A stretch of 64,000 nt of DNA from Verrucomicrobiia bacterium (lineage in GTDB: Bacteria; Verrucomicrobiota; Verrucomicrobiia; Opitutales; Cerasicoccaceae), in contig JAUIHT010000006.1 in NCBI GenBank assembly GCA_030432235.1, positions 186,001 through 250,000 on the forward strand, read 5' to 3'. This document shows, piece by piece, positions 5,467-60,375 of the stretch; positions within the stretch are counted from its first letter, which is position 1; each line of letters begins with the position of its first letter. A program made the position numbers and the translations under genes. A model generated the notes under the pieces. That model made no database searches. It saw nothing but the letters and a program-made list of their open reading frames with translations, and had not been told where the DNA came from.

Positions 5467-6522
5467 TCAGGTATCGCGTATAATTAACGACGGTTCGAAA
5501 ACCACCACCTCACCGGGTTTACGGCGGCCCTCGATCACGTCTATCAGGTAATCGGCGCCGGCACGCCCCATTTCCGTCGTGGGCTGACGCACGGTACTCA
5601 GGGCTGGAATGATGTAACGCGTCGGCCAGTTGTCATCATAGGCCACGAGCCTATAGTCCTTGCCGGCCTGATAACCGTGCATTTGGGCCGCCCGCAGGAC
5701 CTCGACTGCATGCGTTGTACTGGTGGCAAAAATGCCCTCGGGTATCGTTTCATCCTCAAATACCCGGGTCATGACCTGGCGCGTGTCATCCAGACGTTGC
5801 TCAATGGTCTTGTGCCGGTCGGTAACTTTAATCACCCGCGGTGCAGGCAATCCCAGGTCTTTGAGGCGGGCGGCAAAGGCCTCCCCGCGTTGAGGCACAC
5901 CGTGGCCCTTGGTATCCAATGTCACCACCCAGCTTTTCCGGATTCCCAGAGCATAAAAATGACTCGCGACCAAATTGCCCCCCATCACGTTGTCCGAAAG
6001 TATCCGCGTTACCTTCGGGTGCTGGCTGGGGCGCCCCAGCAGCACGACGTTAATGCCACTGTCGGCGAGTTCATTGATCGTCTCGTCAGTCAGCTTATTA
6101 TTCGCACTGCCGACAAAAGCCAGACTGTTGACGCCATTAGCCCCAAGAACGTCCCGGTGAAAAGTCATCGGGCTGGTGTCATCATGCAGGTGGGCTAACA
6201 GGATGCGGTAACCACGATTCGCCGCCGTACGCTCAAAAGCCTCAACGATATCGACACTGTAAGGGTCCTGCAAATAACTGATACCCAGCACAATAAGCTT
6301 CCGATGCTTGCTCCTTAGTTGCGAGGCGAAGAAGTTGGTGCGGTAGCCCATCTTGGCCGCCGCCTTAAGAATGCGTTCACGTGTCTGAGGGTTGACGCGC
6401 TCATGACCAGACAGAGCCCGATGAACTGTCACCTGAGAGATACCAAGCGCCTCGGCTAACTGTGTCTGCGTTACCGGCTCCGATGATTGCTGCTTCACGC
6501 GGACCATTCGTAGGGCTTTCAT
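5467..6522 (-). CDS. LacI family transcription regulator
   Basis: 351 residues. An N-terminal helix-turn-helix (about 18-65: TQTQLAEALGISQVTVHRALSG then VNPQTRERILKAAAKMGYR) is followed by a periplasmic-binding-protein-like effector domain (about 70-350). That is the standard LacI/GalR layout and length; the family represses sugar genes and releases DNA when a sugar binds. The start is ATG 6522; a second Met at codon 6 is possible. It is the last gene of the minus-strand string of cluster B, 191 bases downstream of a LamG/PEP-CTERM gene, which suggests it controls that cluster. The repeated promoter elements at 7636 and 11296 are candidate targets. Confidence 0.88.
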   Translation of the reverse strand: MKALRMVRVKQQSSEPVTQTQLAEALGISQVTVHRALSGHERVNPQTRERILKAAAKMGYRTNFFASQLRSKHRKLIVLGISYLQDPYSVDIVEAFERTAANRGYRILLAHLHDDTSPMTFHRDVLGANGVNSLAFVGSANNKLTDETINELADSGINVVLLGRPSQHPKVTRILSDNVMGGNLVASHFYALGIRKSWVVTLDTKGHGVPQRGEAFAARLKDLGLPAPRVIKVTDRHKTIEQRLDDTRQVMTRVFEDETIPEGIFATSTTHAVEVLRAAQMHGYQAGKDYRLVAYDDNWPTRYIIPALSTVRQPTTEMGRAGADYLIDVIEGRRKPGEVVVFEPSLIIRDT

Positions 6523-6713: not shown

Positions 6714-7583
6714 CTAACGTCGGCGACGGCGCAGAAAGCCCAGAGCAAGCACCAATGCGAAAGCGGCGACCACCATGGATGACTGGGATGCCTCCGGCAC
6801 GGGCGTGTAGTCGTAAGCCACATTGGAAATACGGAACTCGTCAAACACTCCCGGCTGCGAGCCGTACCCGGAGCCCAGACGGTTACCGAGGCGCAAATTA
6901 TGGGTGTCCGCCCCTAGGCTGCCAAAGTCCGTACTGGTTACGCTGGCGACATTGTTTCCGTCCTGGAACAGCTTCAGGCCAACGCCGTCCTCGTAGGTGA
7001 AGGCCAGGTGTGTCCAGGTATCAGCTTCCCAAGTCAGATCTGAGGTGGACAAAGTCAAACCGCTCGTTCCATTACCGACATCGACCCTGACCTGTCCGGC
7101 ATTGTTGATAAAATACATAGAAAACCCAGTGGTACCACCCAGCGTGTACATGTGATCGACCAGATAGCCAAGACCACCGCTGGCCGACCAGGGAGTGCTG
7201 CTGAAGGGCTTGAACCAAAACTCCACAGAAAGCTCGGAGGTGGCAAAGGCACTACCGAAAGCGCCGCCGTTACCCAACTGAGCATACCCCTCGTTGGCGG
7301 TTGTCTTGGGAGAATCACTCTGGAAGGCTAGGTCAAACTTACCCGACACTCCGACCTGACTGTGAGCAATGTTCGTCAGAATGTTTGCTGTTCCCAACGA
7401 AGAAGCCCCGGTTGCCGCATTGGAATCGGTTAACGATTCAGCGGGTTGGTTGAAATGGTAGAGCACAATAGTATTGTCGCTTGTACCATCATAGGCGTTG
7501 GCCCATGCCGTATAGCCCATTGAGGAAACCGGGAATAGCACAAAGGCTAAGCTGGCGGTGAGGAGAAGGTTGGTAATCTTCAT
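6714..7583 (-). CDS. LamG-domain protein with PEP-CTERM-like sorting tail
   Basis: 289 residues from ATG 7583; an upstream ATG at 7619 would add 12. A signal peptide (1-24) is followed by a concanavalin-A/LamG-like beta-sandwich (about 35-255), with TFHLAFTYEDG-type strands and a GNRLGS turn. The C-terminal 28 residues (VPEASQSS, a hydrophobic helix, then GFLRRRRR) have the layout of a PEP-CTERM tail, which is recognised by an exosortase for surface retention, although the motif reads PEA rather than PEP. LamG folds usually bind glycans. It is a paralogue of the protein at 10473-11261, which lacks the tail. A promoter-like element shared with that paralogue lies at 7636-7664. Confidence 0.75.
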   Translation of the reverse strand: MKITNLLLTASLAFVLFPVSSMGYTAWANAYDGTSDNTIVLYHFNQPAESLTDSNAATGASSLGTANILTNIAHSQVGVSGKFDLAFQSDSPKTTANEGYAQLGNGGAFGSAFATSELSVEFWFKPFSSTPWSASGGLGYLVDHMYTLGGTTGFSMYFINNAGQVRVDVGNGTSGLTLSTSDLTWEADTWTHLAFTYEDGVGLKLFQDGNNVASVTSTDFGSLGADTHNLRLGNRLGSGYGSQPGVFDEFRISNVAYDYTPVPEASQSSMVVAAFALVLALGFLRRRRR

Positions 7584-7635
7584 AGTGCGTGCAGGTTTGG
7601 TGTGATTATTGAGATTCATTGCCGACCATTCGGCC

Positions 7636-7845: not shown

Positions 7846-9111
7846 TCAGTACTCGTTGGCAGCGGATTCCAAAGCGACTTGAGGTTTGGGAGATATTTTC
7901 CACCCCAGGATTTCAAGTGGCGCCAAGGTTCGAACGACCGGCCTGGTACTCAGGTCAAGACTAGTACCGCTGAAGGCATCGGCCAACAGGGCTTCCTCAG
8001 GGATGCCCTCGACTTGCACTTCCGCAGAGACCTCACCAGAGTTGACCAGAAACAGATAGCGATCTTCGCCGTAGGCTATGTTGGCCATGGACACCGGCGA
8101 ATAACTCACCTCCTCCTTCATGCCGCCCACCCCTATCTTGGGTGAAACCATGGGGGCGTCGTTGGTCACCGTAAGAGTCACATCGTAACGCCGTTCACCA
8201 AAGAGAAACACCTGCCCGAGCTGCGGGCTGCCGGTCATTTCCTGGGCGATCTGCGAATAGGCCGCATAGTAGTCGTAGAAAGAGGGAAAGTTTGCGCGGG
8301 CAAAATTAGAAAAAACAAAGATGCCCTTCGCGTCGGCAACCAGCCCCGCGTAGCAATCATGCCGCACCCATGCTTCGATGCGCGTGCGCTCCTCTGGTTC
8401 CGGCTCTTGCCACATCTCCGGGACCAGGATGGAAATCTGTCCACCCCCCAGGCGTTTTGCCGCCTCAATCTCCTGCTCCAGGCTCCAACGGCACCAGACT
8501 CGGTTATACTTCTGCCCGGCATAATTGGTATAAGTCCCCTTCCCGATGATATCGAGGTATTGATTGGTTTCCATCAGTGCCGCGGTATTGCGGTGATTGG
8601 GTTCGTACATCCAGATCGGACGCTGCAGGGGATCGTTTTCCCGGATGGCTTCGGTCGCCGCCCGCAGGTATTCGATTTCGTCCTCTTTCCAATAGCGCAA
8701 CTCCTCCGGCCGCAAATACCACCAGGCTATCGTTTCGTCTTCTGCTACGGCACTAACTTGCCGGGCGATTTCCTCACGGATTTCCTCCGAGGTTAGTACC
8801 TTCTTCGGCTTGTCATGCTTCTCCAGAAAGTTCATCTCGATGGCCACCGTGTAAATGGCAAAGAGACCGTTCTCACGAGCTCTGGTCAAAAAAACAGCCT
8901 GCTGGCCATAGACGGGGCCATAGCAATTGAAGCCTGCGGCTTTATCGCGCTCGGGAATGCCGGAAAAGCCTCCCATGGGAAACTGTTGCCCCTGCGGATA
9001 GAGCTTATCGGCAGGCAGGGAATCCGGTGCGACCGGCCCGGGCTCGAAGAACGCGGCCCCGGTGGGAAGGGACAAAAGTGCAGCGCAGGCTAGCAGAATG
9101 AGGACGCGCAT
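7846..9111 (-). CDS. Putative secreted glycoside-hydrolase-like protein, copy 1
   Basis: 421 residues with a signal peptide (1-20). The body reads like a TIM-barrel glycosidase: WWYLRPEELRYW (131-141), IWMYEPNHRN (about 166-175), a LVPEMW segment with Glu232, and a C-terminal beta-sandwich-like part from about 330. Glu136/Glu137 and Glu232 are candidate catalytic acids. I cannot place it in a named family. It is clearly homologous to the next gene upstream (9120-10448), with long identical runs such as AATEAIRENDP, so the pair arose by tandem duplication. The genes are 8 bases apart and form one unit with the LamG gene at 10473. A secreted enzyme or binding protein for the cluster's polysaccharide is likely. 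Confidence 0.65.
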   Translation of the reverse strand: MRVLILLACAALLSLPTGAAFFEPGPVAPDSLPADKLYPQGQQFPMGGFSGIPERDKAAGFNCYGPVYGQQAVFLTRARENGLFAIYTVAIEMNFLEKHDKPKKVLTSEEIREEIARQVSAVAEDETIAWWYLRPEELRYWKEDEIEYLRAATEAIRENDPLQRPIWMYEPNHRNTAALMETNQYLDIIGKGTYTNYAGQKYNRVWCRWSLEQEIEAAKRLGGGQISILVPEMWQEPEPEERTRIEAWVRHDCYAGLVADAKGIFVFSNFARANFPSFYDYYAAYSQIAQEMTGSPQLGQVFLFGERRYDVTLTVTNDAPMVSPKIGVGGMKEEVSYSPVSMANIAYGEDRYLFLVNSGEVSAEVQVEGIPEEALLADAFSGTSLDLSTRPVVRTLAPLEILGWKISPKPQVALESAANEY

Positions 9112-9119
9112 GAAGTAGA

Positions 9120-10448
9120 TTATTTGGCGAGAGATAATTCAAAGACAGATACACCGAATGGAGGCAACGCAGCCATGATCTCCCCTTCCACGACACTGAA
9201 CTCGGGCGCGTCGCTGAGGACATCGTGCGCCACGAGCGTCATGTAGGGGATACCGCCAACCACGACCTCGACTGCCTCATCGGAGGAATTGACCAGAGTG
9301 ATGTAGCGCTTGCCTTTGTAGATGCGGTTGTCGAGAACAACCGACGGGTAAGTGAGTGGACCGTCCTTGGATGCCGGACCTGGAGGGGGAACCTCAACCG
9401 TGTCCGGACCGGAAAGGATATCCAATGTCAGGTCGTCCCGCTTCTCCCCGAAAAGGTACACCTGCCCGAGTCCGTCCTCGCCCATGACCAAGGGAGCCAG
9501 CTTCTTGTAGGCTTCGTAATACTGGGCGTGGGCTTCGAAATCCGGTCGCCGGCGGAGGGAAAATACCATGATGCCCTCGGCGCCATCGACCAGGCTCAGG
9601 ATAACATCGTGGCGCACCCAGGCATCAATCCACTGCAACGTATCCTCGGGAGGCTGAGTGAACATGCCGGGCAGCGACAGGACGATCAAATCGCGACCTA
9701 CCGCTTCCTCCGCCAAGGTTTCCTGCTGCATGGACCAGCGATTCCAGGCACGCTCGTTCCACTTGACGGCGTAATCCGTGTACATGCCTTTGCCGACGAT
9801 ATCGAGGTACTCTGAAGTTTTGGCCAGCGCCTTGGCATCGCGATGATTGGGCTCGTACATGTAAATGGGCCGCCCCTTGGGATCGTTTTCCCGGATGGCC
9901 TCGGTAGCCGCCTGCAGATAACCAAGCTCGTTCTTACGCCAATAGCGAAGCTCCTCGGGTATCAGATACCACCAGACGATGCGCTCATTGTTCGCCACCG
10001 CGCTGACCTGCTCCCCGATGGTTTTCTTTATCTCTTCCGGAGTGAACTCAAGCGGCTCCTTGCTGTGGAAATTCATGGGGATACCCACGGTGTAAATCAC
10101 CTTCATATCATGCTCTTCGGCGTCGCCCAGCAAACGGTCATCGAGCTCGTACGAGGGCCCGAGCACAGTAAAGCCGGCATCCTTGTATTCCTTGAGCAAC
10201 GCTTGGTATGTCTCCTCCGGGTATTTCTTCATCGACTCCTCTTCGGTGCCTCCTCCGACGGAGAAAAAGGTAAACATCAATTCCCGGCCTTCGGGATAGA
10301 TGGCGTCAGCGGGCAGACTTGCACCGAAGTCACCCTCTGCCTCGAAAAAGCCTTCCGGACTGACCTCACCGGCTGCGCCAAAAAGATTCGCCGTCAAAAG
10401 ACAAAAGCCAGCTATGCATGAATGTAGGCGTAGGATGTGTTTAATCAT
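9120..10448 (-). CDS. Putative secreted glycoside-hydrolase-like protein, copy 2
   Basis: 442 residues with an N-terminal signal peptide (about 1-26, LLTANLFGAAG). It shares the domain plan and the motifs WWYLIPEELRYW, AATEAIREND and MYEPNHRD with its neighbour at 7846-9111, and ends in a small beta-rich domain (LDNRIYKGKRYITLVNSSDEA-like) typical of the all-beta C-terminal domain of glycosidases. The conserved PEE motif after WWYL is a candidate acid/base site. The stop lies 8 bases before the start of copy 1, and its start is 24 bases downstream of the LamG gene's stop, so all three are probably one transcript. I do not recognise the family, and the function is inferred only from fold-like features and context. 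Confidence 0.65.
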   Translation of the reverse strand: MIKHILRLHSCIAGFCLLTANLFGAAGEVSPEGFFEAEGDFGASLPADAIYPEGRELMFTFFSVGGGTEEESMKKYPEETYQALLKEYKDAGFTVLGPSYELDDRLLGDAEEHDMKVIYTVGIPMNFHSKEPLEFTPEEIKKTIGEQVSAVANNERIVWWYLIPEELRYWRKNELGYLQAATEAIRENDPKGRPIYMYEPNHRDAKALAKTSEYLDIVGKGMYTDYAVKWNERAWNRWSMQQETLAEEAVGRDLIVLSLPGMFTQPPEDTLQWIDAWVRHDVILSLVDGAEGIMVFSLRRRPDFEAHAQYYEAYKKLAPLVMGEDGLGQVYLFGEKRDDLTLDILSGPDTVEVPPPGPASKDGPLTYPSVVLDNRIYKGKRYITLVNSSDEAVEVVVGGIPYMTLVAHDVLSDAPEFSVVEGEIMAALPPFGVSVFELSLAK

Positions 10449-10472: not shown

Positions 10473-11261
10473 TTATTTGGATTCGAAATTGTAGGCGACC
10501 GAAGAGAGGCGAAAATGGTCATACACACCCGGAGTCGGCCCATAATTGCTGCCCAAACGGTTACCAACCCGCAGGTTCCCTGAGTAAGGGGCGATAGGAC
10601 CAAAACTCTCCATATCCATGGAAGCGACTTCCTCGCCGTTGCGATAAACCGTCAGTAGGCCCTCATCACTATCGTAACTCAAAGCGAGGTGATACCACTG
10701 GCCCGGCTCCCAGGTCAGCGGTCCTGATACCGCAATCAGATTATTGTGACCGTTGCCGACGGATGCGCGCAGGGCCTGATCTCCCCCGACCAAAATCAGG
10801 CTGAACCCGGTCTTGGAACTGTACTGGCAATCCATCAGGTAGGAGTAGCCTTTGTCACCGCCCGGCGTTGCACTCAATGGTTGATACCAGACCTCGGCGG
10901 TCAAGTCTCCGGCCAAGCTATCCTCCACGTCCTTTTTGGTCAATTGCACATAGCCATAGCGCGCCAGGTCCATGCCTTCATCGGGAGCTTTCACTGCAAA
11001 ACCTTTCCCGAACTTCCCCTTCACGCCGGTCTCGACACCGTCCCTGGCATAAACAGCCTGAGGTAAGCCATTCTTGGCAGTCTCGTTAGGGGTGGTATTG
11101 GCATAAGCCCGATCCTCAAAGGTATAGAGCACGATAGTAGTCTTATCCCTGCCATCCGTCTCGGCCTGCCAGTCAGCCGTCGTTGTTTTGGCAAAAGCCA
11201 TGGAACCTACCGACAGGGCCAATAGTAGCAATGAAAAGGACTTCGGGCGTATATCGTGCAT
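10473..11261 (-). CDS. Secreted LamG-domain protein without sorting tail
   Basis: 262 residues from ATG 11261; the TTG two codons upstream is less likely. A signal peptide (about 1-24, LLLLALSVGSMAFA) precedes one LamG/concanavalin-A-like domain (about 35-260) containing AEVWYQP, WYHLALSYDSD and GNLRVGNRLGS. It aligns with the LamG protein at 6714-7583 through the GNRLGS and PGVYDHFRLSSVAY stretch, but stops right after it, so it has no PEP-CTERM tail and is probably released or periplasmic. It is the first gene of a three-gene unit with the two glycosidase-like paralogues, under the promoter element at 11296-11324. The likely role is glycan binding. Confidence 0.7.
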   Translation of the reverse strand: MHDIRPKSFSLLLLALSVGSMAFAKTTTADWQAETDGRDKTTIVLYTFEDRAYANTTPNETAKNGLPQAVYARDGVETGVKGKFGKGFAVKAPDEGMDLARYGYVQLTKKDVEDSLAGDLTAEVWYQPLSATPGGDKGYSYLMDCQYSSKTGFSLILVGGDQALRASVGNGHNNLIAVSGPLTWEPGQWYHLALSYDSDEGLLTVYRNGEEVASMDMESFGPIAPYSGNLRVGNRLGSNYGPTPGVYDHFRLSSVAYNFESK

Positions 11262-11295
11262 AGCCAACTACTGATGAGAGTGAGAATCTGCCCAT

Positions 11296-11496: not shown

Positions 11497-12855
11497 TCAT
11501 TCTTTTGTGGCGCTGTATTTCTCCTCCATTGCCTTGTTCCACCACCAAAGGGGTTCCATTGCCTGTGCCTCCCATTCTATCATGAAGTCCCGGTAATCAT
11601 CGGTTACAGAAGGGTCTGATTTAGACAGATCGACTTTTTCGCCAGGGTCATCCGCTAAATCGAACACGGCCTCGTGGCCTTCCCAATTGCTGTATTTTAC
11701 GTTATTGTGGATCATCCCCTTTCGCCCGTTGGGGCCTAAGATACGCCAATACAAGGTTTCGTGCGGGTTGCCCTCACTGCCATCCATCACATAAGGCAGC
11801 AAGCTAACGCCTTCCAGGCTATCTCCCGGTGCCGGCCCCGAGCCAGCGAGGGCAAGAAATGTTGGCAGCAAATCAAATGATGAAGTCACCCCCTCGAAAA
11901 CCTGACCGCCTTTGATATGCGCCGGCCAGTTGACAACCATGGGAACCCGGACCCCTCCCTCGAAGATCGTACCCTTATGTCCACGGAGCGGGGTGTTGTC
12001 GGATGAGTTTGCACGCCCGGCACCGCCATTATCGTTCAGGAAAACGATAAATGTGTTTTCCAGTTCGCCATTTTCACGAAGCAAATCGATGATTTTTCCG
12101 ATGTTTCGGTCCATCGCGTAGGTCATCGCAGCATTGATTTTACGCTCCTCGCTTTCGTACTGGATGTGATCAATGGTCTGAAGGTCTTCCTCTTTCGCAT
12201 GCAAAGGAGTGTGCGGCGCCGTAAAAGAGAGGTACATAAAGAATGGTTCCTCGCCCTGCCTTTCAAAGTGCTCCTCCAAATATTCGACCGCCTTGTCGCC
12301 AAACATATCCGTCACATAAAGATCTTCCGGCTCGGATATCACCTGACCGTCTTCGACAAGCGCCTTGCCGTAAGAGGGTTTTTCCATCCTGAAGTAACTC
12401 CGTGCTCCTTCGAGTACTCCAAAGAAATGATCAAAACCTCGATTTTGCGGTTGATAAGGTTCGGAGACACCCAGGTGCCATTTACCGATCATGTAAGTCT
12501 TATAGCCAAGGGAGCTCAGGTATTCCGGCATCAGTTTTTCCGTCAGAGGCAACCCCAGTGGATGCGGATTGGGCAGATTGTTTTCATGTCCAAAATACTG
12601 CTGGTAATGGCCGGTCAGCATCCCCGCCCGCGAAGGACTGCAAACCGGACCGGTCACATAAGCGCGCGTAAACCGAACGCCTTCTTCGGCCAGCTTATCA
12701 AGATTCGGCGTAGGGTGAGTCTCGCTGCCCTGAAACCCAAAGTCTGCATATCCGGCATCATCGGAAAACAGCAGCAGAATATTCGGTTTGGCAGCCATCA
12801 GGCTGCTCACCGACGCTAACAGCAAAAAACAAAATATTGGGATACGCACATTCAT
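11497..12855 (-). CDS. Secreted sulfatase, formylglycine type (family S1)
   Basis: 452 residues with a signal peptide (1-21). The alkaline-phosphatase-like core starts with KPNILLLFSDDAGYADFG, where Asp32 and Asp33 would bind calcium. The sulfatase signature C-x-P-S-R-A-G is present (Cys72, CSPSRAGML); this Cys is converted to formylglycine by a maturation enzyme, none of which is visible here. Further typical motifs are GKWHLG, the GVLEGARSY region and LNDNGG. The length is normal for the family. It would remove sulfate esters from a polysaccharide outside the cytoplasm. The exact subfamily and sulfate position cannot be told. It lies 77 bases downstream of the FAD oxidoreductase gene in the same direction. 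Confidence 0.9.
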   Translation of the reverse strand: MNVRIPIFCFLLLASVSSLMAAKPNILLLFSDDAGYADFGFQGSETHPTPNLDKLAEEGVRFTRAYVTGPVCSPSRAGMLTGHYQQYFGHENNLPNPHPLGLPLTEKLMPEYLSSLGYKTYMIGKWHLGVSEPYQPQNRGFDHFFGVLEGARSYFRMEKPSYGKALVEDGQVISEPEDLYVTDMFGDKAVEYLEEHFERQGEEPFFMYLSFTAPHTPLHAKEEDLQTIDHIQYESEERKINAAMTYAMDRNIGKIIDLLRENGELENTFIVFLNDNGGAGRANSSDNTPLRGHKGTIFEGGVRVPMVVNWPAHIKGGQVFEGVTSSFDLLPTFLALAGSGPAPGDSLEGVSLLPYVMDGSEGNPHETLYWRILGPNGRKGMIHNNVKYSNWEGHEAVFDLADDPGEKVDLSKSDPSVTDDYRDFMIEWEAQAMEPLWWWNKAMEEKYSATKE

Positions 12856-12932: not shown

Positions 12933-14837
12933 TCAGGCACCGTATAGGGACTCACGACCGACCTGCTCGGTTTCCATCTGCGGGGCCTCAAGATCGGTCG
13001 TTGATAGATTGCTCACCACTGACGACCAGGTTTGCCGAATAAGGCGTTTGGATGGGTTAGGCACCTCTGACAGAGCTTCCAAGCTGTATAGTGTAGCGCT
13101 GCTCGCTCCCCAAGTCTGCTCCGGAATAAAGCGGAGGTTGCGCGCCTTACAGTCGAGTGAAAGCTCCACCCTGCGCTGATAGTTATTCGACTCGCGAAAA
13201 ACGGTTTCCCACACACCGTTGTCTTTCTTCACCTCGATTCGAAAGGCCTTTACCATCGTGAAAGGTACGCCACTGGGGACCCCTTTGAGCGGGTAGCGAC
13301 AAGGCATCTTCTTTGCGTTGTTCAGATTGCTATCGAAAATCAAACGAAGGCCACCGATGTGTTCTGTGTTCGACCAAGCCAAGTCGATACTATCGCCGCA
13401 GTGTCCTTCCCAGGCGTTTCGCTCATTGCCATTTGGCCTCGTCCAGCCATTACGCAGCACTTCGTGGCTGTATTGGGCGCGAGCTGTAAGCGGATTCGCT
13501 TGGCAGGTCAGCCCGGGCAACCAGCAATCGTCTTGCTGGAGGTGATTTTGAAGCGTTGTTATGTGCTGCGGAAAAAGATTCTTCGGAAGACAATTGAGCG
13601 ATGTGCAGAGAGCGGCTGCCGTGCCCGCGGCCTGGCCAATCAACGAGGTCGTACCCATCACACGGGTAGAGGAAAGCGCCGCATGGGTGACCGATATGTT
13701 GCGCCCGGCAAACATAAGGTTGTCGATATCCACCGAATACAAACTGCGATAAGGGATTCCATAAGGTGAAGGCGCTGGATGGAAGATGGTCGGGCTTCCC
13801 GGGTAGGCGAGCCCGGCAGGATGGTGATCGTCCATTGTCCAGCCGCCATAGGCAATAATGTCATCAAATTGTCCCCCGCTGCGTATGTCGTTTTGGGTCA
13901 TGATGTGCGGGCCTTGATAACGGCGGTTCTCTCGCTTCCCCGGCAAGGAGCCGACCCATTCAATGGCCCAATTCTGGGTGCGATCCCGCATTTTCTTCGG
14001 GCCCTTGTTTTTCATGTAATCCCATATACCATAGGTGATGCGCATGAGCTCATGGCGAATGGCTTCGGCGTCGCTGATGGTATTTTGCAAACCACCAATT
14101 TCCAGCCACCAGAAGTTTTGTCCAAGACCGCTTTCACCGATACGGTTTCTTATCTCCTTCTCCGTATCGAAGACGTAAGCCCAGTCGGGCGGTATATACG
14201 AACAGGCTTCACTGGTCTCGCGTAATTGCAGCAGCAGACTGTTTCCCATCGTCTTGCGATCTGCACGCCAGGGTTGGATATCTTCATCGAACTCCTCGCG
14301 GCTTTCACGCCCCCAGCGAAAACTCGCGCCCGTCAACGGTGCGAGTATGGAGTCACCCGAACAATCGATAAAGATTTTTGCGAAGACCGTATGGTAACTC
14401 TGGGAGGTCAGTTGCCAGCAGCGAATGGATTCAATTTTGCCATTATGGCAGTTTGCATCCAAGCAGCTCGTGTTGAGCATCAGAGTCAGGTTTTCACAGA
14501 AGGCAACCTTCTCATATAATACGGAATCCCAAACAGAGTAGTTGCCATCAGGATTACGATAGCAGTTTTCCAATTGGATTTCTTCGAGAATGCCTGTCTC
14601 CTTGACATTTCGCCCGTGCGCACCGCATATCCACATTCTCACTTCGGAAGACGCGTTGCCACCGAGCACCGGTCGATCTTGAATTAAGGCGGTTTTCGCG
14701 CCTCGTCGTGCCGACGCAATCGCAGCGCACATACCCGCCATGCCGCCACCGATCACACAAACATCATATTCGTGCGTATAATGATCCAGTTGCCTTTGGG
14801 CACCGTTGAGAACGTTTTGCGTTGCTTTAACTTTCAT
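12933..14837 (-). CDS. FAD-dependent oxidoreductase with C-terminal beta domain
   Basis: 634 residues. A Rossmann FAD-binding motif, VCVIGGGMAGMCAAIASARRG (core GGGMAG, residues 30-35), is followed by VLGGNASSEVRMWICGAHG, a hallmark of the FAD-dependent oxidoreductase group (PF12831-like) common in polysaccharide clusters of Verrucomicrobia and Planctomycetes. A second nucleotide-site segment (NLMFAGRNIS, GQAAGTAAAL) lies around 375-415. The last ~190 residues look like a discoidin-like beta-sandwich. There is no signal peptide, so it is probably cytoplasmic. The substrate is unknown; oxidation of a sugar or modified sugar is the usual guess. It sits between a beta-helix gene and a sulfatase gene with short gaps, so it is probably in the same operon. 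Confidence 0.75.
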   Translation of the reverse strand: MKVKATQNVLNGAQRQLDHYTHEYDVCVIGGGMAGMCAAIASARRGAKTALIQDRPVLGGNASSEVRMWICGAHGRNVKETGILEEIQLENCYRNPDGNYSVWDSVLYEKVAFCENLTLMLNTSCLDANCHNGKIESIRCWQLTSQSYHTVFAKIFIDCSGDSILAPLTGASFRWGRESREEFDEDIQPWRADRKTMGNSLLLQLRETSEACSYIPPDWAYVFDTEKEIRNRIGESGLGQNFWWLEIGGLQNTISDAEAIRHELMRITYGIWDYMKNKGPKKMRDRTQNWAIEWVGSLPGKRENRRYQGPHIMTQNDIRSGGQFDDIIAYGGWTMDDHHPAGLAYPGSPTIFHPAPSPYGIPYRSLYSVDIDNLMFAGRNISVTHAALSSTRVMGTTSLIGQAAGTAAALCTSLNCLPKNLFPQHITTLQNHLQQDDCWLPGLTCQANPLTARAQYSHEVLRNGWTRPNGNERNAWEGHCGDSIDLAWSNTEHIGGLRLIFDSNLNNAKKMPCRYPLKGVPSGVPFTMVKAFRIEVKKDNGVWETVFRESNNYQRRVELSLDCKARNLRFIPEQTWGASSATLYSLEALSEVPNPSKRLIRQTWSSVVSNLSTTDLEAPQMETEQVGRESLYGA

Positions 14838-17716: not shown

Positions 17717-19375
17717 TTAGCGCAACCAGAGAGGCGGGGTGCCTTCCTCACCCCAGGCTTTGCGACTCTTCCATTCGAAGGACGAGACGGCCTCCGGGTC
17801 GAGTTGGGTGGAAGGATATTCCTGCAGCACGCGCAAGTGCGCCTCGGTGATCGACGCATATTTTTCAGCGTTTTCCGGATCCCCGAGCAGGTTGATGTGC
17901 TCGCCTGGATCCGAATCGTGATCGTAGAGTTCCATGCTGCCGTCGCCGTAGCGAATGAGGCGCCAGCGCTCACTGCGTACCGCGTGCGAATTCAAATACC
18001 AAGTGGAAACAACGGCCTCGCGTTCCAGCGTCGCCGAAGAGTCAGCCAGCAGAGGCGAGATATCGACACCGTCGAGGTCAGCAACTTCCGGTAAGTCGCA
18101 GAGAGTTGTAAGTGTTGGGTAAAGGTCGAGCAGGCAGACCGGCACATCGGACGTCGTGCCCGGTTTCGTCAGTCCCGGAACACACCAGATAAATGGTATC
18201 CGGGTCGACTCTTCCCAGAGCGCCTGTTTGTGCCAGTGCATTTTCTCACCAAGGTGCCAGCCATGATCAGAGTACAGTACAACTATAGTGGTCTCGATGA
18301 GTTTTTTCTCCGGCATACGCGGGTCAGGCGTCTGCTCCAGGGTATCGATCAGGCGTCCGACTGCGTGGTCCGAATAGCTGATACACGCAAGGTAGGCGCG
18401 CACGATTTTCTTCCAGTAGTCATCATTGATCGACTCACCGACCCGCCATTCCTCCTCAATGAAACGGCGCATGTCGTCATAAGTGGGCGCATGCCCATAG
18501 GCGAAAAATTTGCCCATGGGCGGCACATCCCCCATCTCGCCCTCCGGAACCGTTGGGATCGAGATATCAGCAAGCTTATACATCTCAAAAAACTCCTTGG
18601 GCGCTACCAGCGGCACATGCGGCGCCGCTAAACCGCAGGCAAGCATGAAGGGCCGGTCGCTATGGTGTGCCCGGATGCGGTCCACCGCCCAGTCTGTGTT
18701 CGCTTCGTCACTGAGTTTCCCTTTGGGAAAAACGTTCAAGCCGTAGGCATCCTTGCGATCAAAGTCCTCTGGCGTCACCTCGTGATACCATACCGCCGCG
18801 GTGATCGGACGCCCAAAGCCAGCTTTGATATTGGAACCATCAGCCTTCTGAAACGGAAAAACCGGGCCAAACGTGTGCTTCATGCCCCACTCGGTCCAGA
18901 GACGTTCTTTCGGCACCGTGGAGTTGTCGCAGTAATCTTCATGAAAGATCTTGCCGGTGCCATACGTATCGTAGCCGCCTTGCTTAAACGACTCTGGAAG
19001 GTAATGGTCGAAACCACCTTCGACCTTACGGCTCAAACGAACGATCTCACTGTTATTGATAAAACCAAGATTGGCCGGATGCCTCCCTGTAAGCAGACTA
19101 TTGCGAGAGGGGACGCATGAGGCCATATTCGCATGGGCATTCTCAAAGCTCATTCCCATTTCGGCGAGACGCTCTATATTTGGGGTGATCGAATCTGGAT
19201 ATCCCCCAAGCGGTTCAACCCAGTCGTTCAAATCATCAATCGCAATGAGAACGACGTTCGGACGAAGAGCGGGCCCAGAAGCTTTTGCCACCACCTGCGC
19301 CAGCAGCATCGCAAACGAGGCGACTACCATAAACTGTAATACTGGCCTGCTGGTAAACTGTCGTTTGTGAAACAT
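17717..19375 (-). CDS. Sulfatase, iduronate-2-sulfatase-like
   Basis: 552 residues. A hydrophobic signal segment (about 12-31) precedes the sulfatase core RPNVVLIAIDDLNDWVEPLGG, with Asp47 and Asp48 as metal ligands. The formylglycine motif is CVPSRN (Cys87). The DDLNDW-GGYP-TPNIERLAE pattern and the later YSDHGWHLGEKMHWHK segment resemble iduronate-2-sulfatase-type members of family S1, though the natural substrate may be another sulfated sugar. The C-terminus holds the usual small subdomain with YDHDSDPGEHINL. It lies 24 bases upstream of the beta-helix gene and 32 bases downstream of the GH42-like lipoprotein gene, in one direction, so it is likely co-expressed with them. It is the second sulfatase of the cluster and is not closely related to the first. 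Confidence 0.88.
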   Translation of the reverse strand: MFHKRQFTSRPVLQFMVVASFAMLLAQVVAKASGPALRPNVVLIAIDDLNDWVEPLGGYPDSITPNIERLAEMGMSFENAHANMASCVPSRNSLLTGRHPANLGFINNSEIVRLSRKVEGGFDHYLPESFKQGGYDTYGTGKIFHEDYCDNSTVPKERLWTEWGMKHTFGPVFPFQKADGSNIKAGFGRPITAAVWYHEVTPEDFDRKDAYGLNVFPKGKLSDEANTDWAVDRIRAHHSDRPFMLACGLAAPHVPLVAPKEFFEMYKLADISIPTVPEGEMGDVPPMGKFFAYGHAPTYDDMRRFIEEEWRVGESINDDYWKKIVRAYLACISYSDHAVGRLIDTLEQTPDPRMPEKKLIETTIVVLYSDHGWHLGEKMHWHKQALWEESTRIPFIWCVPGLTKPGTTSDVPVCLLDLYPTLTTLCDLPEVADLDGVDISPLLADSSATLEREAVVSTWYLNSHAVRSERWRLIRYGDGSMELYDHDSDPGEHINLLGDPENAEKYASITEAHLRVLQEYPSTQLDPEAVSSFEWKSRKAWGEEGTPPLWLR

Positions 19376-19407: not shown

Positions 19408-22400
19408 TCAGTTCCCCCAGATTTCGATTTCGTCGAGCGTGCCTTCCGGCCCAGACCAGCTGGATTCGATTCTGACATAGCGCCCTTTGGCGTTGAAAAG
19501 GTCAGTTATGTATTCGCGCTCGGGTTGTTCAGGACGCAGGACGGCCGCCTCGGCGAACTGGTCGCCGTCAGTGCTGACCGCAATACGAATTGTTTCCGGG
19601 TAAACGGTTCCCGCGCCACGAACGATATTCACCCGCCGGATGTCGTGTTCGTCCTTGAGGTCGAGCAGTACGGAAATTTCATCCGCTTGGTAACGGGCAT
19701 GGTGTTTGATATCCCCCCACCAATAGGGATAGCTCTCTCGAGTGCCGGTCGGGCTGGAAAAACCATTGAGCAAAGCTTGGCCCGTATCGTTGCCGTAACC
19801 GTCCTTTTCCGGATCGGCGATAGCAGTGTCTTGAGGCGCCAGATAACGATAATCCGCCCGTGTCCCAGTCCGGTAGGGATAATTCTCCGGATAGCTTTCA
19901 TTGCCGGAAAGCAGGCGTAAGACCTTGGACGTATCCGGCGCGCTTTCGACATGGACGGCGGCCACCGCCTGGCGTTTTTCCTGCCCACACCAAGCGGCAG
20001 CGACGGGGCAGAGCCAACCGGGACGCATGCGGACAGGATCGGAATCCGGCGTCACGGTAAAGGAAAAATCAGCGCTTTCTCCCACACCCAAGTCAGAGGT
20101 TTTGACTTGGGCGGGCTCAACTTTCCAGCCCGAGGGGGCCTGTACCTGCAGTTCTCCCGAGGACAGATTGGCTCCGGTAGTGTTAAAGAGTTGAACGTCG
20201 ACAGTAAAGGCTTCGCCGGGTACGGCCAGCAAAGTGTGGTCGTCCATGCTCGAATGACTGGAGCCGCTGGCGGCAATGCCAAGCAGCGGAGGATGAGCTG
20301 CTAACAAGTAGAGCATCCCCGCAGATGCGATTTCTGGCAGTTCAACTTCGTAACGACCGTCCGGGAGCTCCCGTATCGTGACTGGCTCCAGCTCACTGCT
20401 TTCGGCGGAGCCCCACAGCGCTGTCCCCCATCCGCTGCTTGGCAGCGACAGAGTGAGGAGAGAAGGAGCAATAACCTCCTGTTCGCCCAGACCTCGGTTG
20501 GCGACCACGATGGCGTAGTTGCCCTTGCCGTCGGTGTAGGGTTGTTCGACGCGCAGTTTGCCCGCAGCTTCAACGGGATGACTATCCACCTCGTATGCGG
20601 GTTTGACACCGCAGCCAAGCAGGAGCGAGGTCAACCACTTGCCGATAGCGAATTCTCCGGAAACAGCATGGTATTCCTCGCGATCGGCGGTAGGACCATC
20701 GGGATCGAGCATACCCTCCCGCACCTTGATCGGCGTATCAGACATCAGCGAACCCAACTTGAAAGGGAAATACAGAACGCTGCCTTTGCCATAGGGCCGA
20801 TGCCAGGCGAGCGCATCGGATGTGTCGTCCATGCCCAGTATCTCAGCGTTTACAGACAGCGTCGCCTCTACCCTGCCACTGCCTTCAAGCGCTACGTCGT
20901 CATAGACGATGAGGACCTTTTGTTCGGGTGTGCCTGGCTCCGGCGTGGTTCCCAACACCTCTTCGAGCCCATTGGCGATAAGGTGGCGTTCACCATAGCG
21001 GCCCACCATGGTGTCGGCGACGAGCAGGCCACCGTCTTCCGTGAAAGTCGTGACCGCTCCACATTCGTCGTCACTTAAGTGGTCGGCGCCGATCAGGAAC
21101 AACGCATCGTATTGCTTGAGCCAGACAGGCGTAAGCTTGGTGTAAGGGATGACATCCACCCAGTAGCCGTTCTCACGCAACCAACGGTAGATCATCCAGC
21201 GATGGTTTTCCGGGTAGTTCCACTTACCCGCCGGGCGCCGGCTCGTGGAAGAGGCGCTCAGCAGGACGTCTCGCCGAGGCACCAGGATCGCCACTTTGGG
21301 CGCATCCACCGGAATGCTATCGGTCCAAAAGGCTTCTGTACGGTGAACCATGTTAGCCCAACGCGCCGCGTAGTAGAGCTTCTCTTTGGGCGTACCGCTG
21401 GTGGTATCGAGGAAACTCCATCGATGCCAATCACCCTTCGCTCCGGGAAAGCCCATGGTGAAGAAATTCACTGCCTTAAGGCCGTTTGCCATGGCACGGT
21501 AGAAGGTGGTGGCGAACTGGTGGCCGGCCTCGCCGTGGCTGTTAGCCTCAGGGAGAAAGACGCCATATCCGCTCGCGCCGTTGGCGGGCCGAATGCAGTT
21601 ATAAAGGTAATCGAGCTCGTAGGCGTGTTTATCGCTGCTGCCGTACATGTCGGCGCCGTAGTAGCCACCGCTGTAGGGACGAATCAAGTCGGCAAACAGA
21701 GCCTGGTCGAAAGTACGCTCACGGTTCGCCTCGGGCATTTCGATCGTCTGTTGGGTGGACTTGTGTACGACGCCACGTTTTTTGGGATCGGCCTCATACA
21801 TAGTCTGTGCCAGCTTTGCCTGGAAGCGAACCAGGCTTTCACTCTGAAACTGCCACCAGTCGAGGGTTAGCCCCGGATTTGATGCGTAAGTCTTGCGGGT
21901 TGGCGGTTGTTGCGCGGAAACCGCGTCGAAATCAGCAAAGTCCGTGTTCCAGGCACGGTTGAGCTCGGTGATTTCGCCACCATAAGCTTGCTCCAGCCAG
22001 AGGATGAAGGCTACCTTGGCTGGCCCGGAATAGTCGGGGAAGCCTTCCCATTCATTCGCGAGGCCCCAAAGGGCGATCTGCTTGCCCATTTGCGTGCCGA
22101 GGCGGGTCAAGACGTGTTCGCGGGCGTCGTCGAGCAAGTACTCGCGAGTAGGCGCATCAAAAATGTTGGCCGCTTCGGGACGGCCGCCGTAGGGCTTCCC
22201 CTCTGGATCAACAGCCGGGATTAGCCGGCCATAACGGCTATCGATGAAATATTCACCATTCTTAGCGCGTGCGCCGTAAATGAATCCCAGCATCTCGGAC
22301 GCACGGGCACGGCTGTAATAGACCATACCCGGCACTGGAATCTCGTCGGGTGGTGGGTAGTCATCATCGTACAGGAAGCTGCTGTTCCGGGAAAGCTCAT

Positions 22401-22683
22401 CACGGAGATTGAAGCCGGTCTGGATAGCTCGATCCGGATCTCCAAGGAGAAAGCCCATGGGAAACCAGCCTTGCGAGGGTGGGAATTGGTTAAGCTCCAG
22501 GGTGTAGGCCGAAGTCTCGTCAAGCGTGACAGCGATCGGTTCCTCGGATGTGGACGAAGAAGGGGCGGCACAGCCCGCCAGACTCGCGACCAAGAAAAAT
22601 ACTGTCGGAAGATGCTTCAGGTTTGAAATGCAAAGAGGGGATGTACGAGTCGTTGTGCGGAACATGCTTTTTCCAATCGACAT
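19408..22683 (-). CDS. Beta-galactosidase-like lipoprotein, GH42-type, with C-terminal binding domain
   Basis: 1091 residues from ATG 22683; ATG 22665 is an equally plausible start (residue numbers below use 22665). A lipoprotein signal ends in the lipobox SLAGC (Cys32). The TIM barrel (about 65-480) carries LWGLANEWEGF, with Asn204-Glu205 as the clan GH-A acid/base pair, and VFLPEANSHG, with Glu373 a candidate nucleophile; the 168-residue spacing fits GH42. A glutamine-amidotransferase-like trimerisation domain follows (about 490-640), then beta domains, and finally a discoidin-type carbohydrate-binding domain (about 880-1085, ending DEIEIWGN). It is unusually long for GH42. It probably cleaves beta-linked hexoses at the outer membrane. 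It belongs to the minus-strand operon of cluster B. Confidence 0.75.
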   Translation of the reverse strand: MSIGKSMFRTTTRTSPLCISNLKHLPTVFFLVASLAGCAAPSSSTSEEPIAVTLDETSAYTLELNQFPPSQGWFPMGFLLGDPDRAIQTGFNLRDELSRNSSFLYDDDYPPPDEIPVPGMVYYSRARASEMLGFIYGARAKNGEYFIDSRYGRLIPAVDPEGKPYGGRPEAANIFDAPTREYLLDDAREHVLTRLGTQMGKQIALWGLANEWEGFPDYSGPAKVAFILWLEQAYGGEITELNRAWNTDFADFDAVSAQQPPTRKTYASNPGLTLDWWQFQSESLVRFQAKLAQTMYEADPKKRGVVHKSTQQTIEMPEANRERTFDQALFADLIRPYSGGYYGADMYGSSDKHAYELDYLYNCIRPANGASGYGVFLPEANSHGEAGHQFATTFYRAMANGLKAVNFFTMGFPGAKGDWHRWSFLDTTSGTPKEKLYYAARWANMVHRTEAFWTDSIPVDAPKVAILVPRRDVLLSASSTSRRPAGKWNYPENHRWMIYRWLRENGYWVDVIPYTKLTPVWLKQYDALFLIGADHLSDDECGAVTTFTEDGGLLVADTMVGRYGERHLIANGLEEVLGTTPEPGTPEQKVLIVYDDVALEGSGRVEATLSVNAEILGMDDTSDALAWHRPYGKGSVLYFPFKLGSLMSDTPIKVREGMLDPDGPTADREEYHAVSGEFAIGKWLTSLLLGCGVKPAYEVDSHPVEAAGKLRVEQPYTDGKGNYAIVVANRGLGEQEVIAPSLLTLSLPSSGWGTALWGSAESSELEPVTIRELPDGRYEVELPEIASAGMLYLLAAHPPLLGIAASGSSHSSMDDHTLLAVPGEAFTVDVQLFNTTGANLSSGELQVQAPSGWKVEPAQVKTSDLGVGESADFSFTVTPDSDPVRMRPGWLCPVAAAWCGQEKRQAVAAVHVESAPDTSKVLRLLSGNESYPENYPYRTGTRADYRYLAPQDTAIADPEKDGYGNDTGQALLNGFSSPTGTRESYPYWWGDIKHHARYQADEISVLLDLKDEHDIRRVNIVRGAGTVYPETIRIAVSTDGDQFAEAAVLRPEQPEREYITDLFNAKGRYVRIESSWSGPEGTLDEIEIWGN

Positions 22684-39752: not shown

Positions 39753-42700
39753 CTACTCAAGAATGAGCTCGCCTTCGCGCCAACTGCCGGTGGGCAAGGT
39801 AACGGAGCCGCTGGAGTAAGTCAGGTTTTGCGGGCTTCCGCTAATATAGAATCGCCACTGCTCACCACCACTTGGCGCCTTGAGGCCGGAGACTGTCAGG
39901 CCGGGCCCCGCGATATCATTACCGCCCGAGTCGAACATGGTGCGACTGACCAGGAGGTATTCGCTCGCGTCGATGTCCAGCTCATCCTCGGTCACCAGCA
40001 TGACCGTGGCGAAGCCGCTGCTTCCCGCGATGACCAAGTGCTGCAGGTCCGCCGGAGCAGAGCCGTCGAGTGTTCCACTGAAGACCTCGGCCTGGTCAAC
40101 CGCACCGGTGAGCTGGTTGCGCGTGATGTCCTTGGTAATTTCCCCGGTATCCGAGACCAGTTGGCTACCGCTCGGCGAACCAGTCATAAAGAAGGCCGTA
40201 TCCTGGCCGCCGGGTTTCGTCCCAAAGGCCTTCCGAATCTCGTGGAGATTCTGCCAACCGGGCTGGTAGTCGTATTTATTGGCAATCAGCCCGAAGTAGC
40301 TGGACTGCCAAACCGGATCGTCGACGTAAACCGTGATGGGCGACTGCGAGCGCGCGAACAAACCACGACGGAAGATAAGCCCCGCCGCACGAATATGGTC
40401 CTGCATCATGATGTCGCTAATCATGGCGCCCAGGTACTGGTCCCGCGTCAGCGGGTCTCCCTGGCCATCGGAGGCAACATTGTTGTCACCGTGATTCCAG
40501 GCGAACCAGGTGATGCCCGACCAGCCCTGCAGCAGACCGTAGGTCGCCGCACCCGCCATCAGCATGGTGCGCTTGGGATCGTCTTCGGCCTCATAGCTGG
40601 TGCCTTCGCGCTGATTGAATTCTCCCAACACGAAGGGCTTACCCTCCACCGCCGACTTTGAAACGGAGCGTATCCAATCGTCCAGCGTATCCGTGATCTC
40701 CGGCCGGACATAACCGTGGTTCTCAATGTAATCGCCCATCTCGGCATTCATTTTGAGGGGCCGCTCACCGCGCCAGAGGTTCGAGAACAGAAAAGCCTTA
40801 TCATAACCGAGCGAAGCCACGTGGTCCTTCATCCTCTGGAAGTGAGCACGGTCGAGACCGTCGAGAAAATCAGAGCGTCCCTGCCTCTGGGCGGTCGTCG
40901 ACGGACTGTAAATATCGCACGGGGCGATACTGTTGGCGGTGGTATAGTCGTCCCACAAGTCGTTCAGCAAATCCGTCCAGTAGGAAACCGCCGGATAGCT
41001 GCTGTTGATAAACTGATTGCCTGCCACAATGACGTACTCCGAGGAGAACTCGTTAATCGTCTCGATGGCAAACACCTGCGGATCCTCGCCGTAGCTCAGC
41101 CCCGTGTAGGGATTGACGTGGGTCAGCAGATTCGCAACGAACTCCTCGTCAATCAGAGCGGCGCGTTCATCAAAGACAGGCAGCATCTTCTTCTTGTCGA
41201 TGTTGAATTGCCAATAAGACGCGTTTAGGTCCTCCACGGCATCCTGCCAGGCCTGCTCATCGGTTGGGTTAGTCGAGAGGATGGACACATCACCGGGCAG
41301 ATACCGACGCGAGAAGCGCATGGAAAAGCTAACGTAGATTCCATGCTCGCGCAGGCACGCATTCAGATAGTCAAAACGATCCAGTGCTTCGTCATCGAAC
41401 TCACGCGAAGTCGTATCGTAGGTGACCAAGGCCCCGATACCGGACTTTGTATTCCAGTCCTGACTGGAGCGCATCACATGGTGCCAGCGTACGCAGTTAA
41501 CGCCCCGGTCGGCCAGGTAAGCAGCATAGGCATCCGCGGTTTCATGATCAGGATAGAATGACACGGTATTGACCGCCCAGAAGCGGATGGGTGACTCGTC
41601 GCTTTCGCGCACAAACTGGTCGCCATCGACCACCAAAGGCTCAATCAATCCTTCCCCCGGAAGATGCGCCGGATCGCCGCCATGAAAAGTGACTTCCAGA
41701 CGCGGCGACAGAGTGCCCTGACCAGCCGAACGCACATAGAGGCCGTCATAGGTGTTGTCGCCAAAGAGCACCAAACCGTGGTTCTCCAGAGTACCATCAT
41801 ACCAGGCCTGGAGGATTTCAGTAACGTCGATGGATATCCAGGTATCCACTGGCACGCCCTCAAAATCAGCCGTGGCAAAGAGCGTATCTTCGTAGTCGAC
41901 GCCCGCGATGGGACCATCGGTAGCGGTGGATGTGCTGCCCCAGTAGGCCGTCGGAGAGCTACCGTCATAGGCACGATAACTCCAGGTCACATCATCACGG
42001 CTCCAATCTTTTAACAGCGGATAGGCAGTGAGAATTTGCGGAGCAATACCCCAGGCCCCCTCCAGATACAGATGCAGCACGGCCGACTCGATAGTCGCAC
42101 CGGTGGCAGGTATCTGCTTGAGGCTAGTGCCCATGATATCGTCAAAGCGAATCAAGCCGGGTGAAGCTTGAGAGGCCTCTGGAATACCGAAACCGTAGAG
42201 ACGCCAATCATTGATCCGGCTCAATGGATTGCTGCCTTCTATGGTGCTGCAGACAGTCGAATTATAGCCGTCCTGCCCCTCCTGGAAATTCAGCGTGGTC
42301 GAGGAAGATGACTCCGCGTAATCGATCTCCAAAATCGGCGATAACGTGCCATAGGTCATGGAGCGGGCGCAGATACCGTCGTAAGTGCCGTCCGCGAAGC
42401 CGATAATGCCGTTGTTAGGAAGCGTGCCCTCGTGCCAAGCGCGTACGATGTCGGTGACGTCCAGCTCGACCCATTCACCATTACTCGCTCCCGTGATATC
42501 AACGGCACTGTGGATGCTCATGTCGTAATCGACATCCGCGATAGGGCCATCGGTCGCCACCGAGCCACCGCCCCAGTAAGCGGTCGGCACACTGCCATCA
42601 TGCGCACGATAGCTCCAGGTTGCTGTCGCACGGTCCCAACTGGTTAGCATCGGATACAGGTCTACCGTCTGACTGGTCAGATTACCGTACTGATTATATT

Positions 42701-43013: not shown

Positions 43014-43091
43014 TTTGACTTGGGGTTGTGGGTTTTTGAGCAAGGGTATCAATGATAATGTGACGTTCTCAAACGAAATGCTCAAGTCTAA

Positions 43092-43108
43092 TGTAATAAA
43101 AAAATACA
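43092..43108. promoter_or_regulatory. TGTA-N9-TACA site 3
   Basis: Inverted repeat 79 bases upstream of the minus-strand GH-A start (43013), in the divergent region with the regulator gene. Its centre is 44 bases from that of site 4, about four helical turns. Confidence 0.6.
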
Positions 43109-43135
43109 AATTTAAGAAAGAATCCGCTTGCCTAT

Positions 43136-43152
43136 TGTACCTATATAATACA
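43136..43152. promoter_or_regulatory. TGTA-N9-TACA site 4 over a putative -10 box
   Basis: Inverted repeat with extended arms (TTGTA...TACAA). It covers TATAAT (43144-43149), the likely -10 box of the regulator gene starting at 43185, which suggests autoregulation. Confidence 0.6.
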
Positions 43153-43184
43153 AAGATGGCTTTTGTTAGATATCTCCCCCTTCC

Positions 43185-48271: not shown

Positions 48272-48291
48272 TTGTTTGACATATGAAACAA
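48272..48291. promoter_or_regulatory. Putative IclR operator, TTGTTT-N8-AAACAA
   Basis: Perfect 6-base arms 40 bases before ATG 48331 and 97 bases before the divergent IclR start. The spacing and A/T-rich arms resemble known IclR-family sites. The upstream ATG at 48283 lies within it, which argues against using that start. Confidence 0.45.
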
Positions 48292-48330
48292 AAAAGAGAG
48301 CATGAAAGTCCTCTTCAATTCGACTCAACT

Positions 48331-49392: not shown

Positions 49393-49398
49393 CCCCCT

Positions 49399-50454: not shown

Positions 50455-50473
50455 ACCTCAGACCCAAACGAAC

Positions 50474-51970: not shown

Positions 51971-51989
51971 TCGCCAACAGGAGATTTCC

Positions 51990-53156: not shown

Positions 53157-53162
53157 TTTTTC

Positions 53163-60310: not shown

Positions 60311-60375
60311 CAAGCAGGAGATGTTTATCGTCAAATCAATGGGGTTAATGCATAAGCGGATAATGAGGCCACGGA

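Follow-up and report, generated by a model that had tools for sequence, protein, structure and literature searches.

An old pair of paralogues from an unnamed, probably glycosidic protein family akin to clan GH-A in a Verrucomicrobiia bacterium

Verrucomicrobiota and Planctomycetota carry many polysaccharide genes without an assigned role. Here, we analyse two adjacent paralogous genes, A and B, in 64,000 nucleotides of a Verrucomicrobiia bacterium (Opitutales, Cerasicoccaceae; GenBank assembly GCA_030432235.1, contig JAUIHT010000006.1, positions 186,001–250,000 of the forward strand); the whole of this stretch is referred to as the window. Gene A (9120..10448, minus strand) encodes the 442-residue protein P0002 and gene B (7846..9111, minus strand) encodes P0001, of 421 residues. 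Both follow a gene for a LamG (concanavalin A-like) protein (10473..11267, minus strand; Laminin_G_3, 1.9e-18), the first of the tight cluster, so that transcription on the minus strand runs through the LamG gene, gene A and gene B and then on to a second LamG gene and a gene for a LacI-type regulator. Gaps of only 24 bp (LamG gene to A) and 8 bp (A to B) make a single transcript of the three genes likely, as an initial annotation of this DNA had proposed. A scan for promoters and terminators gave counts close to those of shuffled sequence (7 vs 5.3 and 8 vs 8.0, respectively), and no LacI operator was found among 11 upstream stretches scanned for CG-centred palindromes with at least eight of nine paired positions. 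The same annotation described tandem paralogues that share the motifs WWYL-PEELRYW, AATEAIREND and MYEPNHR. This description is borne out: the BLASTP alignment of P0001 with P0002 extends over 407 columns at 42% identity (E 7e-100, far beyond chance) and each contains WWYL-x-PEELRYW, AATEAIREND and MYEPNHR. Both N-termini resemble signal peptides (judged by eye, no predictor), in keeping with the secretion that had been suggested.

Pfam gives no match for P0001 up to E 1 and a single, sub-threshold match for P0002, to Malt_amylase_C (0.016) over the C-terminal sandwich; NCBIfam gives none for either protein. Among 33 members of the family searched against Pfam (cutoff 0.1), 12 families were matched, mostly by C-terminal sandwich models or as single chance matches: Malt_amylase_C by eight members (at best 1.8e-6, and towards the C-terminus in those matches whose positions were displayed), Melibiase_C by six (best 0.0027) and each of the others by one or two. 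No glycosidase barrel family is among these 12, nor is the alpha-amylase barrel of glycoside hydrolase family 13 (GH13), and the Glyco_hydro_42 barrel and trimerisation domain are matched neither by P0001 and P0002 (E 1) nor by the 33 members (0.1). A kinship to the window's own GH42-like protein (19408–22683) was considered and rejected (hhalign probability 5.7%). The family is real and uncommon and has no name in Pfam or NCBIfam, in agreement with the initial annotation, which had proposed a profile search as the test of its claim; no clear assignment to a characterised family emerged from Pfam, NCBIfam or the sequences of the PDB. No title naming the family was found in the literature, a search whose scope excluded subscription papers and CAZy and which is no proof of absence. 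CAZy includes families that are absent from Pfam, and the proteins might belong to one that lacks a Pfam or NCBIfam model and hence not be new. We regard this as unlikely, though worth entertaining, since a profile of 33 family rows matched no solved structure better than 0.007 and so revealed no closely related protein of deposited structure.

Structure prediction gives P0001 and P0002 the same fold, a (beta/alpha)8 TIM barrel followed by a C-terminal beta-sandwich. The VIA re-alignment covered the top 1000 chains from Foldseek (so that families missing from its lists are not thereby excluded) and places clan GH-A first for both proteins, with GH42, GH164 and GH140 followed by GH2. For the P0002 model the Z scores are 25.4 for GH42 (root-mean-square deviation 3.6 over 331 residues), 24.2 for GH164, 22.7 for GH140 and 20.9 for GH2 glucuronidases; for the P0001 model they are 20.9 (4.3 over 337), 19.4, 18.7 and 17.0, respectively, with GH158 at 15.8–16.0. 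A sequence profile of 35 rows, added distant ones among them (A5), matches GH158 at 7.4e-7 over 150 profile positions, the best match among solved structures, and GH2 beta-glucuronidases from 8.3e-6; both alignments span strand 4. The models and their re-alignment therefore uphold the earlier view of glycosidase-like TIM-barrel proteins, at only a distant relation to named families.

Candidate catalytic residues were sought through conservation among 50 collected family rows, which include both window proteins and one fragment (P0002 numbering). The most prominent motif, W-x-L-x-P-E-E after predicted strand 4, is nearly invariant (W160 48/50, P164 48/50, E165 49/50 and E166 50/50). P194, Tyr198 and Asp281 are present in every row, and 43 rows carry a Glu after strand 7. 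P0001 retains all of the candidate catalytic residues. Its PEE starts two residues past strand 4 in the model and supplies the candidate acid/base, which may be either E136 or E137 (codons 8701..8706, minus strand), as judged from conservation and from the register against GH158 and GH2: the GH158 alignment pairs the first Glu of PEE with the catalytic Glu, and the printed GH2 rows pair the second. E232 (codon 8416..8418, minus strand), the final residue of strand 7 (226–232) in the model, is the candidate nucleophile, again on the strength of its conservation. P0002 has the PEE motif at E165/E166 (codons 9951..9956, minus strand) and Gly261 (codon 9666..9668, minus strand) at the position of the strand-7 Glu. 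A sequencing error appears unlikely here, because the A protein of a separate genome assembly, G030, has Gly too. A core set of 39 rows has 42 columns with at least 90% conservation; P0002 departs at three of them (the strand-7 Glu included), the G030 A protein at four, the A protein of a second pair in the window's genome (contig C9) at five and P0001 at two, compared with 0–6 for the core rows; with so few departures, the loss of the Glu in P0002 seems to be a specific change and not a sign of decay at large. A small subgroup of the family (L094, L095 and L117) has WWDLPEE(Q/R)RWW or WWDFPEEQRWW, is one residue shorter ahead of PEE and in two of three cases has Met for the strand-7 Glu.

Several known groups resemble the family. 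The GH158 endo-beta-1,3-glucanases (BuGH158, 6pal; GH158(Pro), 9oro) likewise comprise a TIM barrel and a C-terminal beta-sandwich with Glu after strands 4 and 7. Identity is 11–16%, and gene A lacks the nucleophile residue. The Asn before the acid/base of BuGH158 (Asn136) is described as essential and the alanine mutants of N136, E137 and E220 as inactive, the latter as data not shown there (PMC7157763). In the present family the Asn136 of this Asn136-Glu137 motif is replaced by Pro or Glu. GH42 and GH164, both of clan GH-A, give the top structural Z scores for both models, at 10–16% identity in those matches. The GH2 beta-glucuronidases of the same clan are recovered both by profile and by the VIA re-alignment (Z of about 16–21), but the family barrel has no GH2 sandwich domains ahead of it and the Asn-Glu motif is replaced. 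The GH140 apiosidase (8t9w) ranks high in Foldseek and VIA and has a similar two-domain size; its identity is 12–15%, and it is absent from the sequence-profile matches. A group of unnamed CBM4_9-like barrel proteins (L050–L053) matches the family by profile (L051, 98.4% in hhalign over 319 columns) but differs in having WYIND-EL for W-x-L-x-PEE, Gln aligned at the strand-7 Glu and an N-terminal CBM4_9-like domain; L051 is related to the window family and also to GH158.

To count relatives, a genome was scored if it held a match at E 1e-3, matches below 1e-60 being termed strong; the samples overlap, and the window's genome was counted where sampled. With a single-protein query, two of 88 genomes of near relatives match. 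Matches were found in 9/384 genomes of the class, 23/387 of the phylum (17 strong), 45/197 of the class of G687 (16 strong) and 6/392 of the phylum of G699 (three strong). The weak matches mostly extend over the C-terminal sandwich or a portion of the barrel; strong matches occur in 32 genomes in all. Scanning the contigs of public genomes for a pattern yielded 26 candidate stretches and three confirmed relatives, in metagenome-assembled genomes of Opitutia (UBA4506), Verrucomicrobiales and Anaerohalosphaeraceae (Planctomycetota); the genes on the Opitutia contig are those on contig C47 of G030. G030 and the window's genome belong to one order. The window's genome also encodes, on C9 with its second A/B pair, a distant 997-residue member (L006, 11343–14333), in which 3keto-disac_hyd-like domains (PF06439) precede a very divergent family barrel. 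Elsewhere, the family member at 10190–11164 of L012 (L032) appears to be broken: a stop lies inside the match in G428 and the open frame runs into non-aligning sequence.

A and B recur together. They are adjacent or within 3 kb of each other on one strand at no fewer than 11 loci in at least nine of the 32 strong-match genomes, a lower bound since contig ends and capped scoring can hide partners. The pair-bearing genomes are that of the window (G000; contigs C11 and C9), G030, G486, G498, G570, G641, G687 (C103 and C134), G1142 and G1156; in G1109, A and B are on separate contigs. A precedes B in the window, on C9 and in G030, B precedes A in G486, G498, G570, G641, G1142, G1156 and on G687 C134, and the order is A-B-A on G687 C103. 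Because the order varies among lineages, the co-location seems to have been kept or regained. In a tree of 49 rows, the A protein of the window groups with those of G030 (99/92) and C9 (100/100) and its B protein with those of C9 and G030 (100/96). As each partner groups with its counterpart from the other cassettes, the A/B split predates all three on this phylogeny, and a recent local duplication as the source of the window pair is contradicted. The label A was given to proteins that have the motif YE[LI][ND] together with a long loop following strand 1. The 18 A proteins fall in one branch shared with four other rows (82/88, not starred), and, as regards a possible single ancestral A/B pair for all lineages, B needs four changes and A two on this tree, which contains two long rows (the 997-residue protein and G570 B) and lacks a clean outgroup.

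We favour, with moderate confidence, the interpretation that A and B are an old paralogue pair of an unnamed, probably exported glycoside-hydrolase family akin to clan GH-A and consist of an active enzyme and a divergent partner. It is likewise somewhat probable, from the sequence and the predicted models, that B acts as a glycosidase and that its family is clan-GH-A-like. In the mechanism that we propose, B would hydrolyse a glycan at the C-terminal face of its barrel by two carboxylates, with E136 or E137 of the strand-4 PEE as acid/base and E232 of strand 7 as nucleophile, and without the Asn of the clan. A retains the predicted barrel and PEE, but with Gly at the nucleophile site it most likely carries out little or no ordinary retaining hydrolysis and instead serves as a partner, binder or specialist beside B in the lineage of the window. 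The LamG protein probably binds the glycan and holds the complex, or the cell, on it, and the LacI-type regulator probably controls the gene set. A more elaborate version is tentative and, in our judgement, rather unlikely: that this is a new family bordering on clan GH-A, in which Pro-Glu-Glu has replaced Asn-Glu, and that it forms a two-subunit enzyme of co-maintained paralogues in which B is catalytic and A is a lineage-specific pseudo-glycosidase with a role in substrate binding or in shaping the active site.

Several observations weigh against a pair of active enzyme and partner akin to clan GH-A. The structure models were built from six sequences, and the mean predicted local distance difference test score (pLDDT) of the best of five is 73.2 for P0001 and 74.7 for P0002, with worst values of 53 and 54. 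The top Foldseek ranks mix barrels of GH13, GH140, GH30 and GH27, and for the P0001 model GH13 chains (Z 15.8–16.5) tie with GH2 and GH158. With the 33-row profile, GH158 reaches only 0.49, and the best match to PDB sequences, at 0.007, falls on the C-terminal sandwich of another enzyme; the significance of GH158 in profile A5 leans on the four distant rows L050–L053, since L051 by itself already matches GH158 at 2.1e-5. The clan GH-A Asn preceding the acid/base is absent in either register, its place being taken by Pro (48/50) if the acid/base is E136/E165 and by Glu (49/50) if it is E137/E166. Measured against the definition of clan GH-A, the family has the (beta/alpha)8 barrel in predicted models, the strand-4 Glu as candidate acid/base and, in P0001 and most rows, the strand-7 Glu; because the Asn is lacking, its sequences place it outside the clan in the strict sense, although it probably works like a clan GH-A enzyme. 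The C9 A protein retains the strand-7 Glu, and the loss is therefore not general to A proteins. Finally, seven rows are without this Glu: Gly stands in its place in P0002 and the A protein of G030, Trp in L011 and L073, His in L072 and Met in L094 and L095. Together with the Gln of the distant rows L050–L053 they make a different mechanism possible, and they also lend some weight to the view that both proteins are non-catalytic glycan binders on a retired TIM barrel, with the LamG gene and LamG fusions as further binding parts. We consider this view improbable: P0001 retains every candidate catalytic residue, and conservation of the strand-7 Glu in 43 of the 50 rows and of the strand-4 Glu pair in 49 and 50 is a pattern that one would expect of catalytic proteins and not of mere binders.

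The genes around the pair were compared at 13 family loci in the nine pair-bearing genomes, some of whose contigs end early. In the window, the second LamG gene (6714..7619, minus strand) has a counterpart in G030, and the C-terminus of its product is weakly PEP-CTERM-like, below the cutoff (12.4 vs 20.7 bits). The LacI-type regulator (5467..6522, minus strand) shares 55% identity with the regulator beside the G030 cassette and has a relative near that of C9. Ahead of the LamG-A-B set lie a sulfatase (11497..12855, minus strand; Pfam 8.9e-63), 229 bp beyond the LamG gene, a PF12831 FAD-dependent oxidoreductase (12933..14837, minus strand), a CBM96/beta-helix protein, a second sulfatase (17717–19375; Pfam 1.2e-45) and the GH42-like protein. 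Two sulfatases do lie nearby, the second being about 7 kb from the pair with four genes (LamG, first sulfatase, oxidoreductase and beta-helix protein) between. Within 5 kb, PF12831 oxidoreductases occur at 6/13 loci (six genes vs 0.41 expected, Poisson p 4e-6; a divergent 984-residue open reading frame of G030 matched in two pieces was counted once), Laminin_G_3 genes at 4/13 (six vs 0.67, p 7e-5) and sulfatases at 2/13 (three vs 0.57, p 0.02). These p-values merely rank the three families, because the loci are dependent (G486, G498 and G570 are of one genus), the families were picked after a first look and gene clusters violate the Poisson assumption. LamG and PF12831 genes are nevertheless better supported as neighbours than sulfatases. 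A LamG protein is encoded beside the pair in the window, on C9, in G030, in G1142 and, below the Pfam threshold, in G641, whose LamG-like gene, the fifth, is 61% identical to that of G1142 and has no Pfam match at 1e-5; in L011 and L047 the barrel carries a fused LamG domain. Besides a LamG gene and a LacI regulator, the cassettes of G030 and C9 both include genes of the enolase superfamily and of the creatininase family, which hints at sugar-acid catabolism downstream. Relatives of their LamG genes and regulator were found in the window, and none of their enolase-superfamily or creatininase-family genes. Prepilin-like proteins (FTLIELLVVIAIIAIL or variants) are frequent beside family genes (L059, L060, L062–L066, L110, L112, L006 and L011; by eye, no base rate).

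The initial annotation had further proposed a sulfated polysaccharide as a possible substrate, on which the pair would act together with the two sulfatases. Two of the 13 loci have sulfatases within 10 kb (four genes vs 0.98 expected, Poisson p 0.018), two in the window and two at the G687 C103 locus, and a sulfatase-like open reading frame occurs in five of a wider set of 26 compared stretches (the window, L027, L059, L067 and L072), L027, L067 and L072 belonging to other genomes, for which there is no base rate. The proposal nonetheless fares poorly, and we hold it to be quite doubtful: the other 11 loci, on contigs some of which end sooner, have no sulfatase within 10 kb, including those of the closest cassettes, C9 and G030, which lie on long contigs; the pair-bearing genomes G641 (94% complete) and G1142 (89%) have no sulfatase match at E 1e-10; adjoining genes are not independent; and with 77 sulfatase matches in the window's genome, sulfatases nearby say little there. 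As a property of the family, a sulfated substrate is unsupported by the whole-genome sulfatase counts of the nine genomes, the five stretches notwithstanding.

Other parts of the window also merit mention. A second pair of paralogues, divergently placed at 39753–43199 (minus strand) and 44481–46499 (plus strand), shares 44% identity over 648 columns and resembles a further glycosidase family without a name, in which an N-E motif is visible by eye; Pfam gives nothing for the 672-residue paralogue at 1e-4, and what the 1148-residue paralogue matches (CBM96, Disaggr_repeat and TGFb_propeptide) lies outside the shared part. The product of 48283–49392 is DHDPS-like by eye, matches no Pfam family at 1e-4 and is encoded among dehydrogenase-like genes (48283–53966, by eye). 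A Heparinase II/III-like protein (57896–60334; PF07940, 2.1e-8) adjoins a sodium-symporter-like gene (by eye), and this region is perhaps another polysaccharide locus.

The case of the sulfatases cautions against a common inference, in that an adjoining sulfatase is no proof of a sulfated substrate. Should the interpretation of A and B as an active enzyme and a divergent partner prove correct, the pair would constitute a natural experiment, a catalytic residue having disappeared from one of two partners that are conserved together, and the family would be one of glycosidases beside clan GH-A whose acid/base surroundings break the rule of the clan. Its members would then offer concrete candidates for proteins with which Verrucomicrobiota and Planctomycetota break down glycans.

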